Source: Psychroflexus salis (GTDB lineage: Bacteria; Bacteroidota; Bacteroidia; Flavobacteriales; Flavobacteriaceae). Taken from it: 64,000 nucleotides of DNA. The notes below the pieces were generated by a model, which saw only the letters and a list, made by a program, of their open reading frames with translations, had not been told where the DNA came from and did no database searches. Position numbers and translations under genes: made by a program. Location of the stretch: contig NZ_BMGL01000001.1 of the NCBI RefSeq assembly GCF_014640175.1, forward strand, positions 1 to 64,000. The letters are read 5' to 3'. Below are positions 54,312-60,003 of the stretch, piece after piece. Positions within the stretch are counted from its first letter, which is position 1. Each line of letters opens with the position of its first letter.

Positions 54312-55670
54312 ATGTTTAAGAAAATTCTCATTGCAAATCGAGGAGAAATTGCGCTTAGGGTAATTCGTACATGCAAAGAAATGGGCATAAAAACTGTAGC
54401 CGTTTACTCTACAGCAGATAAAGAAAGCCTTCATGTACGTTTTGCAGACGAAGCAGTTTGTATAGGGCCAGCTCCTAGTAGCGAATCGTATTTAAAAATT
54501 CCACATATCATAGCAGCAGCAGAAATTACAAATGCAGATGCTATACATCCCGGTTATGGATTTTTATCTGAAAACGCAAATTTTTCAAAAATATGTAAGG
54601 AACACGATATAAAATTTATTGGTGCTTCGCATGATATGATTGAAAAAATGGGAGATAAAGCAACGGCAAAAGCCACCATGAAAGCTGCCGGTGTTCCTTG
54701 TGTTCCAGGATCTGAAGGAATTTTAAAAGATTTTGAAGATTGTTTAAAAACCGCTAAAAAAATCGGTTTCCCTGTTATGCTTAAAGCTACTGCAGGTGGT
54801 GGCGGGAAAGGAATGCGAGCCGTTTGGAGCGAAGACAAGTTAGAAAATGCTTGGGAATCGGCAAGACAAGAAGCAAAAGCTGGTTTTGGAAATGACGGTA
54901 TGTATATGGAGAAACTGATTGAAGAACCAAGACATATCGAAATTCAAATTGTAGGCGACCAAACTGGAAAAGCCTGCCATTTATCCGAAAGAGATTGTTC
55001 TGTTCAACGTAGGCATCAAAAACTTACTGAAGAAACACCTTCTCCATTTATGACGGATGAGTTACGTGAAGAAATGGGTAATGCAGCCGTAAAAGCAGCC
55101 GAATATATTAAATATGAAGGTGCTGGAACTGTTGAATTTTTGGTAGATAAACACCGAAAATTCTACTTTATGGAAATGAATACCCGAATACAAGTTGAGC
55201 ATCCTATTACCGAAATGGTAGTAGACCACGACCTTATTCGTGAACAAATATTAGTAGCTGCAGGTGTTCCTATTTCTGGTAAAAATTATTATCCTAAATT
55301 ACATAGCATCGAATGTAGAATTAATGCAGAAGATCCTTACAATAACTTTAGACCTTCGCCAGGTAAGATTGTAAATCTACACACACCAGGTGGTCATGGA
55401 GTTCGTTTAGATACGCATGTATATAGCGGATATATAATACCACCAAACTATGATTCTATGGTAGCTAAATTAATTACTACTGCACAAACACGACAAGAAG
55501 CTATACATAAAATGAAACGCGCATTAGACGAGTTTGTAGTTGAAGGGGTAAAAACTACAATTCCATTTCATAGACAACTAATGGATCATCCAGATTATTT
55601 AGCTGGCAACTATACTACTAAATTTATGGAAGATTTCGTACTTGAAGCTGAAGTGGAAGAAGAAGACTAA
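54312..55670 (+). CDS. accC: Biotin carboxylase subunit of acetyl-CoA carboxylase
   Basis: 452 residues, ATP-grasp fold. [20 protein letters not shown] at the start, ATP-binding [15 protein letters not shown] near 157, [17 protein letters not shown] near 199, and [16 protein letters not shown] near 286, with the catalytic Glu and Arg. It carboxylates the biotin on AccB using bicarbonate and ATP. It ends at a strong bidirectional terminator. Confidence 0.97.
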
Positions 55671-55686
55671 ATTTAAAATTTTATAC

Positions 55687-56187: not shown

Positions 56188-59100
56188 TTAATTTTTTTTC
56201 ATTTGAAGAACTGTGCTCACATCATCGAATTCAATGACAGTTCCTTGATTAATTTGGTTGCTAAATATAAGCTTTGCTGTTAAAGTTTCAGCCATAATAT
56301 AGTTTAAATTTTCATTAACAGCTGTTTTTAACTTTTTATTTTCTTGTAAGGTAATGATTACTTGGTCAGTAACATCAAAACCACTTTCCTTTCTAATATT
56401 CTGAATGCGATTTATCAATTCTCTTGCAATACCCTCATTAATAAGTTCTTCGTTTAATGTAATGTCTAAAGCAACTGTAATTCCGTTTGCAGAAGCCACT
56501 AACCAACCTTCTATGTCTTCTGAAGTAATTTCAACCTCATCGAGTTGTATAGTAGTAGGCTTATTGTTCACATCAATTTCAATTTCTCCTTGCTGTTCTA
56601 TTTTTTTAATAGCATCTGCATCGAATTGCTGAATGGCTTGAACCGCAAATTTCATTTCTTTGCCAAATCGTGGACCTAAAACTTTAAAATTAGGTTTAAT
56701 GCTTTTTACTAATATACCTGATGCATCATCTAAAAACTCAATTTCTTTTACATTAACTTCAGCCTTAATTAAATCTGCAACTGCGGCAATTTCTTCTCGT
56801 GTTTGCTCATCTAAAACAGGAATCATAATTCGCTGTAAAGGCTGGCGTACTTTAATCATTTCTTTTTTTCTTAGCGACAAAACTAAAGATGAAATGCTTT
56901 GTGCTTTTTGCATTTTACGCTCTAAACTTTTATTGATAAATGCTTCATTAGCCAATGGAAAATTAGCTAAGTGCACACTTTCTTCAGCTTTAACCGATGT
57001 GTTTTTAGTTAAATCTTTATACAATTGATCTGCAAAAAATGGGGCTACAGGAGCAGAAAGTTCTGCTACTGTTTTTAAACATGTAAATAGTGTTTGATAA
57101 GCAGAAATTTTATCTGCTTTGTAATCGCCTTTCCAAAATCGTCTTCTACACAAACGCACATACCAATTGCTTAAGTTTTCTTGCACAAATTCTGAGATAG
57201 CTCGTGTAGCTTTCGTAGGCTCATAATCATCATAAAAATGATCTACATGTTGAATAAGTGTATTTAATTCAGATAAAATCCACTGATCGATTTCTGGTCT
57301 CTCCTTTAGAGCTATTTCGTTTTCTGCATAACTAAACTCATCAATGTTTGCATACAATGCAAAAAAGGAATACGTATTGTATAAAGTACCAAAGAATTTT
57401 CGCTGTACTTCTGCTATTCCTGCTAAATCAAATTTTAAATTATCCCATGGATTAGCATTACTAATCATATACCAACGCGTTGCATCTGGACCGTAGGTTT
57501 TTAAAGTTTCAAAAGGATTAACAGCATTTCCTAATCGTTTGGACATTTTTTGTCCATTTTTATCTAAAACCAATCCGTTAGAAACTACATTTTTATAAGC
57601 TACCCGATCAAAAACCATGGTTGCTATAGCATGCAAAGTATAAAACCAACCCCGTGTTTGGTCTACGCCTTCTGCAATAAAATCGGCTTGAAAGCCCCCC
57701 AGCCCCCTAAGGGGAGACTTATCAAGCTTATCTTTAATCTTTTTTAGGACTGCTTCTGTTTCATTTATAACTTCTTTATTTGAAAAGCGAATGACATTTA
57801 AGTCAAAGTTCTCTTTCAAAAATTGACTCCTAAATTCATCATTTTTTCTAATCTCTGGATCATTATGATAACCTCCGTCAACTTCAACAATCAATTTTCT
57901 ATCCAAACAAACGAAATCTGCTATGTATTCATCAATAATATGTTCTCTTCTAAATTTATAACCAGAAAGCTTCTTTCCTCTTAAAAACTCCCATAAAGTT
58001 TTTTCTGCTTGATTGGGATTTTTTTTTCTGTTTTGAGCTTTTTCCTTTAAAAATTTATAAGAAGACTTACGAGCTGTCTGATATCTTGGAGAAACAAGTC
58101 CCCCTTTGGGGGATTTAGGGGGCATCTCGAATGGGTAATGCCACTGCGCGTAAGGCATAGAACCTGAATCGAACCAAACATCGATTAAATCGGCTTCGCG
58201 CTTCATGGGTTTTCCATCTTCAGAAACTAAGGTAATTTCGTCGACTACATTTTTGTGTAAATCTACTTGAGCGTAATTTTCGTCACTCATATTACCTACT
58301 TCAAATTCTGCGTAGGGATCTTCTTGCATTAAACCAGCTGCAATGGATTTTTGTATTTCCTTTTTCAATTCTTCAATCGAACCGATTATTTTTTCTACTT
58401 TTCCATCTTCTGTTCGCCAAATTGGTAAAGGAATTCCCCAATAACGAGACCTCGATAAATTCCAATCGTTGGCATTGGCTAACCAGTTTCCAAAACGACC
58501 TTCGCCAGTAGATTTAGGTTTCCAATTAATATTGGTATTTAAATCGTGCATTCGGTCTTTAAAATCGGTTACTTTAATAAACCAAGAATCTAGTGGATAG
58601 TACAAAATAGGCTTATCTGTTCTCCAGCAATTAGGATACGAGTGCACGTATTTTTCTACATGGAATGCTTTATTTTCTTCTTTTAGTTTAATGGCTAATT
58701 CAACATCGATAGATTTTTCTGGAGCTTCGCCTTCTGGGTAATATTCATTTTTTACATATTTACCGGAGAATTCGTCCATTTCTGGTCTAAATTTTCCTTT
58801 TAAATCAACTAAAGGAACAAGATTGTCATTTTCGTCTTTTACCAACATACCTGGCACTTCAGGTTTAGCCTGTTTTGCTACTTGTGCGTCGTCTGCACCA
58901 AAAGTAGGTGCTGTATGTACAATTCCAGTTCCATCTTCGGTAGTAACAAAATCGCCTAATATAACGCGAAATGCATTTTCAGGATGATGATAAGGTTGAG
59001 CAAAATCGAGTAATTGTTCGTAACGAGCTTCAGCTAATTCTTTTCCTTTAAAAGTTTGTACTATAAAATAAGGAATCTTTTTATCTGCTTTTTGATAAGC

Positions 59101-59997
59101 TTTTACATCTTCTAAACTGTCTACTGCTTTAAACTTTTTATGAAATTGCTTTTTAATTAAATTCTTGGCAACTACAACATGGATGGGCTCAAAAGTGTAT
59201 TGATTGTAAGTTGAAACCAATACATAATCGATTTTTGGTCCAACTGTTAATGCTGTATTACTTGGTAAAGTCCATGGTGTGGTGGTCCAAGCAATAAAGA
59301 AAACATCTCCTTGTACTGATTGGAGTGATGTGGGTAAACTTTCTTTTACAGCTTTAAATTGAGCAGTAACTGTTGTATCGGTTACGTCTTGGTAGGTGCC
59401 AGGTTGGTTTAACTCGTGCGAGCTTAAACCTGTTCCCGCTTTAGGAGAATACGGCTGAATGGTATAGCCTTTGTAAATTAAACCTTTTTTGTAAATTTCT
59501 GAAAGTAACCACCAAACACTTTCCATGTACTTAGATGTATAGGTAACATAGGGATTGTCCATATCAACCCAGTATCCAATTTTTTCAGTTAATTCGTTCC
59601 ATACGTCGGTATAACGCATTACAGCTTCTTTACAAGCTTTGTTATAATCTGCAATTGAAATTTTTGTGCCAATATCTTCTTTGGTGATGCCTAATTCTTT
59701 TTCAACACCCAATTCTACCGGCAAACCATGTGTATCCCAGCCTGCTTTTCGTTTTACATGAAAACCTTTCTGGGTTTTATAACGACAAAATATATCTTTA
59801 ATGCTACGTGCCATAACATGGTGAATACCAGGTTGGCCGTTGGCCGATGGAGGGCCTTCAAAAAAAACAAAAGGAGTTTCGCCTTCTCGCGAATCCATAC
59901 TTTTTTGAAAGATTGCATTCTTCTTCCAATCTTCTCCAACTTTGTTAGCAGTTTCTGTTAAGTCTAAAGCTTTATATTCAGTAAATTTCTTTGTCAT
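56188..59997 (-). CDS. ileS: Isoleucyl-tRNA synthetase with in-frame DUF559 endonuclease insertion
   Basis: 1269 residues from the ATG at 59997 (a GTG lies two codons upstream). The synthetase is complete: HIGH-equivalent PSANGQPGIHHVMAR near 55, CP1 editing domain in the middle, catalytic WFDSGSMPYAQW near 607, ADFIAEGVDQTRGWF near 770, KMSKRLGNAVNP near 819 and an anticodon-binding C-terminus. Between HYPFE and ADFIAEG, residues ~625-768 are foreign: a DUF559/Vsr-like endonuclease (LWEFLRGKKLSGYKF, then EVDGG at 705-709, H711). Without the insertion the protein is about 1125 residues, normal for Bacteroidota. No stop or splice motif is seen, so the insert is presumably translated and retained. 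Confidence 0.93.
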   Translation of the reverse strand: MTKKFTEYKALDLTETANKVGEDWKKNAIFQKSMDSREGETPFVFFEGPPSANGQPGIHHVMARSIKDIFCRYKTQKGFHVKRKAGWDTHGLPVELGVEKELGITKEDIGTKISIADYNKACKEAVMRYTDVWNELTEKIGYWVDMDNPYVTYTSKYMESVWWLLSEIYKKGLIYKGYTIQPYSPKAGTGLSSHELNQPGTYQDVTDTTVTAQFKAVKESLPTSLQSVQGDVFFIAWTTTPWTLPSNTALTVGPKIDYVLVSTYNQYTFEPIHVVVAKNLIKKQFHKKFKAVDSLEDVKAYQKADKKIPYFIVQTFKGKELAEARYEQLLDFAQPYHHPENAFRVILGDFVTTEDGTGIVHTAPTFGADDAQVAKQAKPEVPGMLVKDENDNLVPLVDLKGKFRPEMDEFSGKYVKNEYYPEGEAPEKSIDVELAIKLKEENKAFHVEKYVHSYPNCWRTDKPILYYPLDSWFIKVTDFKDRMHDLNTNINWKPKSTGEGRFGNWLANANDWNLSRSRYWGIPLPIWRTEDGKVEKIIGSIEELKKEIQKSIAAGLMQEDPYAEFEVGNMSDENYAQVDLHKNVVDEITLVSEDGKPMKREADLIDVWFDSGSMPYAQWHYPFEMPPKSPKGGLVSPRYQTARKSSYKFLKEKAQNRKKNPNQAEKTLWEFLRGKKLSGYKFRREHIIDEYIADFVCLDRKLIVEVDGGYHNDPEIRKNDEFRSQFLKENFDLNVIRFSNKEVINETEAVLKKIKDKLDKSPLRGLGGFQADFIAEGVDQTRGWFYTLHAIATMVFDRVAYKNVVSNGLVLDKNGQKMSKRLGNAVNPFETLKTYGPDATRWYMISNANPWDNLKFDLAGIAEVQRKFFGTLYNTYSFFALYANIDEFSYAENEIALKERPEIDQWILSELNTLIQHVDHFYDDYEPTKATRAISEFVQENLSNWYVRLCRRRFWKGDYKADKISAYQTLFTCLKTVAELSAPVAPFFADQLYKDLTKNTSVKAEESVHLANFPLANEAFINKSLERKMQKAQSISSLVLSLRKKEMIKVRQPLQRIMIPVLDEQTREEIAAVADLIKAEVNVKEIEFLDDASGILVKSIKPNFKVLGPRFGKEMKFAVQAIQQFDADAIKKIEQQGEIEIDVNNKPTTIQLDEVEITSEDIEGWLVASANGITVALDITLNEELINEGIARELINRIQNIRKESGFDVTDQVIITLQENKKLKTAVNENLNYIMAETLTAKLIFSNQINQGTVIEFDDVSTVLQMKKN
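57694..57720. repeat. Left terminal inverted repeat of the element in ileS
   Basis: 27 bp beginning GCCCCCCAGCCCCC and ending AAGGGGAGACTT. It contains an internal palindrome (CCCCTAAGGGG) and is the imperfect inverse of 58096-58123. Confidence 0.7.
58096..58123. repeat. Right terminal inverted repeat of the element in ileS
   Basis: 28 bp beginning AAGTCCCCCTTTGGGGG and ending TTTAGGGGGC, the imperfect inverse of 57694-57720. It has its own palindrome (CCCCCTTTGGGGG), so each end can form a hairpin by itself. Confidence 0.7.
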
Positions 59998-60003
59998 TTT
60001 CAC

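Follow-up and report, generated by a model that had tools for sequence, protein, structure and literature searches.

Introduction

Inteins are mobile elements that lie in frame in conserved housekeeping genes, often together with a nuclease. In REP/RAYT systems (repetitive extragenic palindromic sequences and REP-associated tyrosine transposases), a gene is found between inverted palindromic units, which also occur elsewhere as solo and paired units. Rickettsia palindromic elements (RPEs) are palindromic sequences of ~150 bp found in frame in unrelated metabolic genes, according to the accessible part of one description (PMC10969869). In the part of a review available to us, association with self-splicing sequences is said to free homing nucleases to invade highly conserved sequences, and free-standing ones are also mentioned; the same source describes I-Bth0305I as an extended multi-domain form with a target near 60 bp (PMC3943268). 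Here, we focus on a 64,000-nucleotide stretch of Psychroflexus salis (RefSeq assembly GCF_014640175.1, contig NZ_BMGL01000001.1, positions 1 to 64,000; hereafter the window), in which the gene for isoleucyl-tRNA synthetase (IleRS, ileS) carries a nuclease-type domain, DUF559, in frame. We propose that this insert is probably a Bacteroidota mobile element of the homing type, which is not spliced out but translated as a domain that the host tolerates, because it matches I-Bth0305I in fold and profile, is under purifying selection and leaves the reading frame continuous through its junctions. Throughout, G labels genomes and L labels loci, G000 being the window genome and G011 a neighbour in the genus.

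A nuclease domain inside isoleucyl-tRNA synthetase

The minus-strand frame at 56188-60003 encodes a complete IleRS, with 1271 amino acids (aa) if translation starts at a GTG and 1269 aa if it starts at the ATG at 59997. The initial annotation had read it as an IleRS with DUF559 in frame and synthetase motifs on both sides, and family searches bear this out. The NCBIfam model TIGR00392 (ileS) matches at 963.6 bits (cut-off 621.4), and Pfam places DUF559 (PF04480) at aa 653-760 (E 9.4e-29, 99.9 bits against a cut-off of 20.6), where it splits the catalytic domain; the other Pfam families include tRNA-synt_1 (in two stretches), Anticodon_1 and DUF5915. At the DNA level, the DUF559 match reaches 105.4 bits, the curated cut-off being exceeded at the protein level. 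The domain lies between the HYPFE and ADFIAEG motifs, and the four nuclease motifs (LWEFLRGKKL, DEYIADFVCLD, EVDGGYH and VIRFSNKEV) are all present in the translation.

All parts of the gene lie on the minus strand. The N-terminal region and the first part of the catalytic domain run as far as HYPFE and occupy 58124-60003, and the second catalytic part (ADFIAEG, KMSKR) follows at 56188-57693 with the anticodon-binding and C-terminal domains, both assigned from the translation and Pfam. Between them, the inserted element, end repeats included, spans 430 nt (57694-58123), with borders read by eye and from the empty sites of relatives. It starts with the left end unit, GCCCCCTAAATCCCCCAAAGGGGGACTT, at 58096-58123, which contains the hairpin CCCCC-AAA-GGGGG, and finishes with the right end unit at 57694-57720, whose reverse complement is GCCCCCCAGCCCCCTAAGGGGAGACTT and which is inverted relative to the left end; both units were defined from the sequence and by end-repeat comparison. 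The nuclease domain, together with an N-terminal motif (YQTARKSSY) common to the in-frame subfamily, fills 57721-58083 (profile match and alignment A1), and the DUF559 match itself covers 57724-58047 (DNA-level match and Pfam). Compared with an empty ileS site, the net gain is 405 nt, and an 11-residue loop (e.g. NKEKVENTWRS) is replaced by the insert.

The insert domain was predicted with a pLDDT (predicted local distance difference test) of 88.8; a model of the IleRS region was poor (mean pLDDT 56.5) and was not used. In a fold search against the 'pdb' database only, the best matches of the domain were 3hrl and then 3r3p, the catalytic domain of I-Bth0305I (Foldseek E 5.8e-3, probability 1.00, template modelling score 0.71 by target and 0.59 by query length). 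The profile comparison with 3r3p gives E 5.9e-7.

The host is an essential synthetase, apparently present in a single copy. A search of the genome with a 118-residue piece of IleRS returned one strong ileS match; the sole second match, in an 879-aa frame (C4, E 6.7e-8, 29% identity), probably belongs to a different class I synthetase. An assembly error joining two loci, which was named as a possible refutation, is unlikely because the same arrangement occurs in the same place in three other genomes of the genus and in G273, from another genus. The idea that the insert gives IleRS an added nucleic-acid-binding function was not supported by the analysis.

One subfamily in many host genes

DUF559 had been taken to be normally free-standing. 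In this phylum, that does not hold for one subfamily, which lives in frame inside housekeeping proteins. After duplicate removal, 158 domains were left, from which 22 in short frames, six HemD fusions and three others (L090, a further HemD fusion, and L033 and L120, in which no host sequence was read beyond the domain) were dropped. The remaining 127 non-redundant domains lie in frame inside the frames of other genes, a sample biased towards the in-frame subfamily because loci were drawn from best-hit lists and with the in-frame profile. By flanking motif, their hosts are LeuRS (28 at a first site, three at a second), MetH (25 at a first site, one at a second), RecG (19), IleRS (17 at a first site, two at a second), ValRS (four), MetRS (four), methylmalonyl-CoA mutase (two), UvrA (one) and others (21); LeuRS, MetH and RecG were named by reading their conserved motifs. 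Pfam confirmed all 18 proteins tested as DUF559 fusions. The partners are peptidase M23, UvrD, mutase (two), Eco57I-type methylase, UvrA, MetRS, urocanase, PurL, guanylate kinase, adenine deaminase, aconitase-type, amino acid kinase, chorismate synthase, aldehyde dehydrogenase/MaoC, polysaccharide synthesis, Lhr-like helicase and ValRS. Altogether, about 20 kinds of host gene are found in the phylum; Pfam assigned 18 of the proteins, and flanking motifs the others. The organisms include Winogradskyella, Galbibacter, Tenacibaculum, Aequorivita, Maribacter and Prolixibacteraceae, and a MetH insert is also present in one Ignavibacterium metagenome-assembled genome. Wherever both sides could be read, the frame runs on through both junctions, and the junction residues vary. 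We found no description of DUF559 inserts in housekeeping genes in the titles and abstract openings listed by our searches of open-licence PMC literature.

In a careful tree of 63 domains, 40 in-frame inserts from LeuRS, MetH, RecG and IleRS form one clade (96/89*), outside which fall 16 free-standing and seven HemD-fused domains. Within the clade, inserts group by site for MetH (100/99*), RecG (95/82*) and IleRS (93/79); the LeuRS inserts do not come together. A larger, quick tree of 158 domains is poorly resolved, with sites partly mixed and two Eco57I-type inserts outside the clade. The 16 inserts of alignment A1 share a motif like Y.TA....Y.LLKE ahead of the domain, and E27, W31, D56, E67, D69 and H73 are invariant in 16/16 rows. 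Values of dN/dS (nonsynonymous to synonymous divergence) lie between 0.17 and 0.24 in the eight computable pairs out of ten, by which measure the protein of the insert is kept by purifying selection.

Several other arrangements were seen along the way. HemD-like frames, so named by sequence reading (L024, L034, L036, L083, L084, L086 and L090), carry DUF559 domains of a separate clade at their N-terminus, with palindrome-type peptides separating the two parts. Among ten short-frame members examined, five adjoin argG/argC-like genes by our own reading; in these loci (L143, L146, L173, L185 and L194, from Prevotella and relatives) the domain belongs to the in-frame subfamily, and a right-end-type peptide reads as the N-terminus of the following protein. 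The window genome also holds, outside the window at G000:C5:126480-126798 (L002, L003), a stand-alone DUF559 gene from another subfamily that is broken by a stop and a frame change and lies among other palindromic repeats. In three LeuRS genes (L004, L005 and L037), a further insertion that is unrelated to the first (such as NIEGCLDNKGKILDKYV...) lies close to the N-terminal catalytic part. Finally, a Y1 (HUH) transposase-like domain is in frame in L257, L258 and L259 (G005, G018 and G019; frames of 929-1272 aa). These frames read like Eco57I-type methyltransferases, and the Y1 domain is possibly a second kind of in-frame mobile domain.

Occupied and empty sites

DUF559 is patchily distributed in the genus. 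Matches occur in 14/27 genomes, with the domain in frame in IleRS in four (G000, G009, G011 and G019) and in LeuRS in five; in LeuRS it lies where the editing domain starts. The comparison with related IleRS genes that had been proposed for finding the empty site turned up such sites: 24 of the 27 genomes have a strong ileS match, of which four are occupied at the insert site and 18 have the ordinary loop. In G023 the loop is shorter, and G020 has a short GC-rich remnant (HYPFE-EPQGGLS-ANFIAEG). At the same first site of IleRS, L306 (G158) carries an unrelated repeat peptide, CHSERSEES, in the loop.

In the family sample, 143/299 genomes have a DUF559 match, and at least 30 have the domain in a frame of at least 848 aa (manual count; 28 of these and G189 were read in sequence, G087 by length only). 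Among the matches listed, an ileS search (match in 197/199 genomes) gave only the window genome above 1250 aa, and a RecG search (match in 193/199) gave five frames of 848-865 aa, the others being mostly ~700-790 aa and a few shorter.

Apparent movement of the insert between species

Comparing G000 with G011 shows that insert and host can have diverged to very different extents. The insert is 97.3% identical (synonymous divergence, dS, 0.07) and the flanking ileS 82.0% (dS 1.19), that is, 2.7% of bases differ in the insert and 18% in the flanks. Only 12 differences fall between -6 and +456 around a 447-nt segment. In a window scan, the core has a divergence of 0.025, and the lowest value among the 151 windows outside it is 0.115; one of the neighbouring genes (54312-55673) shares 84% identity. 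The contrast roughly follows the insert. Two further pairs show a weaker contrast, namely L006/L007 in LeuRS (0.060 vs 0.188, lowest outside window 0.089) and L151/L156 in RecG of Tenacibaculum (0.062 vs 0.114, lowest outside window 0.073). Moreover, the G019 insert groups with those of G000 and G011 in the 63-domain tree (100/97*), and the G019 ileS groups with the empty genes of G016 and G006 (a starred grouping in a quick tree leaving out G020), so that insert and host trees, as reconstructed here, are in conflict for this genome. These comparisons suggest that the insert has passed between species and entered the same site.

These data bear on the possibility that DUF559 is a domesticated domain, inserted long ago, useful to the host enzyme as a nuclease fold and inherited vertically. 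Such a history fits the clustering of inserts by site (MetH, RecG, IleRS), the purifying selection and the 702/997 same-site pairs in which the insert is not more alike than its flanks. It sits poorly with a presence limited to 4/24 ileS genes in the genus and to five long RecG frames among the matches listed in 193 genomes, with the G000/G011 contrast and the G019 tree conflict, with the in-frame scars described below and with hosts that are unrelated and have no obvious common need. We therefore regard domestication as unlikely.

Palindromic end units and scars

The two ends of the inserts tend to be inverted repeats of each other. Tested against dinucleotide shuffles, 83/125 inserts score above the 95% level and 64/125 above the 99% level (two of the 127 were too short). 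A narrow pattern for the unit is found in 68/127 in-frame DUF559 regions and 2/37 fetched Y1 transposase loci, and in 0/9 free-standing DUF559 loci of the genus and nowhere in 80,440 control bases, the scanned regions not being matched in length. The unit core CCCCCNAAGGGGG, allowing one mismatch, has 114 matches vs 16 for a reversed control (summed over the 27 genomes of the genus, some places being counted on both strands), with at most 17 per genome. Units occur solo and as inverted pairs, between genes and in frame in genes, also without DUF559. Short in-frame units are present, for example, in L216 and L228, in genes that resemble type I restriction specificity subunits by reading, with no family search.

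One could therefore ask whether the end units are an ordinary repeat of the REP or MITE (miniature inverted-repeat transposable element) kind, moved by another transposase such as Y1, with DUF559 as a passenger. Solo and paired units without DUF559 would be expected in that case, and Y1 matches do occur in 24/27 genomes of the genus. However, the units are concentrated around in-frame DUF559 rather than at Y1 loci, and on the strength of the 2/37 figure we rejected Y1-driven REP repeats. Among the Pfam and NCBIfam matches of the window frame there is no transposase family, and only DUF559 lies between the end units. Overall, a passenger role is distinctly unlikely.

Some sites retain what the element leaves behind. 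Among 30 RecG loci, 29 were readable: four are full, 21 are empty and four have short in-frame extra sequence (L316, L318, L325 and L339). In L316 a sequence like the left end of the element is kept, and in L325 one like the right end; RecG deletion scars are present in G199, G185 and G200. At the second IleRS site, G019 and G151 have both ends without the nuclease, and L158 and L159 carry a full DUF559. LeuRS palindromes in L025, L041 and L047 lie at the second site, where L119, L124 and L125 have full inserts, and a MetH palindrome in L026 lies at the site of the second MetH insert of G240. These single units at the LeuRS and MetH second sites may be solo insertions rather than scars. The two MetH copies of G240, at two sites, are sisters (100/93*), suggesting that the element jumped within the gene to a new site. 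The window genome itself has a short in-frame palindrome in a mutase/GTPase gene (C8:70168), at the linker where L206 carries DUF559.

A proposed translated homing domain

In the element that we propose, two inverted, GC-rich palindromic end units enclose a nuclease domain (DUF559) of the Vsr/I-Bth0305I-like type. The element lies in frame within loops of housekeeping proteins that are permissive for it. Relying on the promoter and start codon of the host gene, it is probably translated as an additional domain of the host protein, with no sign of splicing; the domain would then stay in the mature IleRS. The nuclease may cut the empty allele (or a palindromic unit), after which the element would be copied in by repair, and new genes could be reached through the palindromic units. 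The selfish, homing-type behaviour first suggested for this insert gains support from the empty sites in close relatives, the apparent movement between species into the same site, the end repeats and the scars.

A number of observations weigh against this proposal. The strong contrast between insert and flanks is seen in one pair only and is weaker in two, the L004/L005 pair shows none in the divergence scan, and the automatically called low-divergence tract is wider than the insert (563 nt in G000/G011, including ~100 nt of slowly changing flank, and 839 nt in L006/L007). The insert is more alike than its flanks in 295/997 same-site pairs (LeuRS 14/378, IleRS 47/136, RecG 94/171, MetH 138/300, ValRS 0/6, MetRS 2/6), and no co-conversion tract surrounds the G019 insert. 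Approximately unbiased (AU) tests fail to reject a single origin of the IleRS inserts (p 0.167) or the LeuRS inserts (p 0.417), and independent insertions at one site were accordingly not retained as an explanation. Shared insertion sites may simply reflect few permissive loops, as L306 illustrates. For the copy in the window, the end-repeat score of 14 lies between the null levels for 95% (13) and 99% (15), and no target-site duplication was seen by eye at the ileS and recG sites read, where no systematic search was made. Palindromic units are also present in some genomes, G010 among them, that lack a DUF559 match, and something else may therefore move them. Finally, only part of the catalytic residues align to 3r3p, the insert's own D56, E67, D69 and H73 being invariant in alignment A1.

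Whether these elements form a class of their own is, in our judgement, an even call. In such a class, which we would term a translated homing domain of Bacteroidota, a nuclease module between palindromic ends would invade essential genes in frame, and since its fold is tolerated as a domain, no intron or intein would be needed. It would spread between species by homing into the same loop, jump to new genes at palindromic landing units and decay by in-frame deletion, leaving peptide scars. A nuclease-type domain appears to persist in this way in essential proteins, without splicing, across the phylum, and its stages can be seen as empty, occupied, doubly occupied and scarred sites. In-frame DUF559 also accounts for the oddly long synthetase, MetH and RecG proteins of Bacteroidota. 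If the proposal is true, the conversion of selfish DNA into protein domains becomes testable.

Comparison with known systems

Like inteins, the insert is in frame in conserved housekeeping genes, and an intein- or intron-like element that is excised from the protein or RNA, or that ribosomes skip, has to be considered. Inteins prefer conserved parts of essential genes, which matches the position of the insert, and the inverted ends could pair in RNA. Unlike inteins, the insert has variable junction residues, a frame that continues on both sides where read and in-frame scars. There is no Hint splicing domain among the eight Pfam families of the window IleRS and no intron family in Rfam at E up to 1 (one chance-level microRNA match lies elsewhere). 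Both identities were rejected for want of a splicing domain or intron RNA family, and removal or skipping is very improbable.

The elements share with RPEs the presence of palindromic DNA in frame in unrelated genes. They differ in having a nuclease-type domain between the palindromic ends; the word 'nuclease' is absent from the main text of PMC10969869. REP/RAYT systems resemble the element in having a gene between inverted palindromic units, with solo or paired units elsewhere; unlike them, the element has no tyrosine transposase and few unit copies per genome.

By sequence, the closest relative of solved structure is the PF04480 protein 3hrl (NGO0050; E 2.5e-30), a stand-alone 104-residue chain, unlike the insert. 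The 3r3p entry carries the name 'Mobile intron protein'; no intron turned up for the insert, and its DUF559 domain is ~120 residues long. The insert resembles the EDxHD (Vsr-like) homing endonucleases, I-Bth0305I in particular, in both profile and fold, and, as homing endonucleases in general do, it occupies conserved genes with a patchy distribution.

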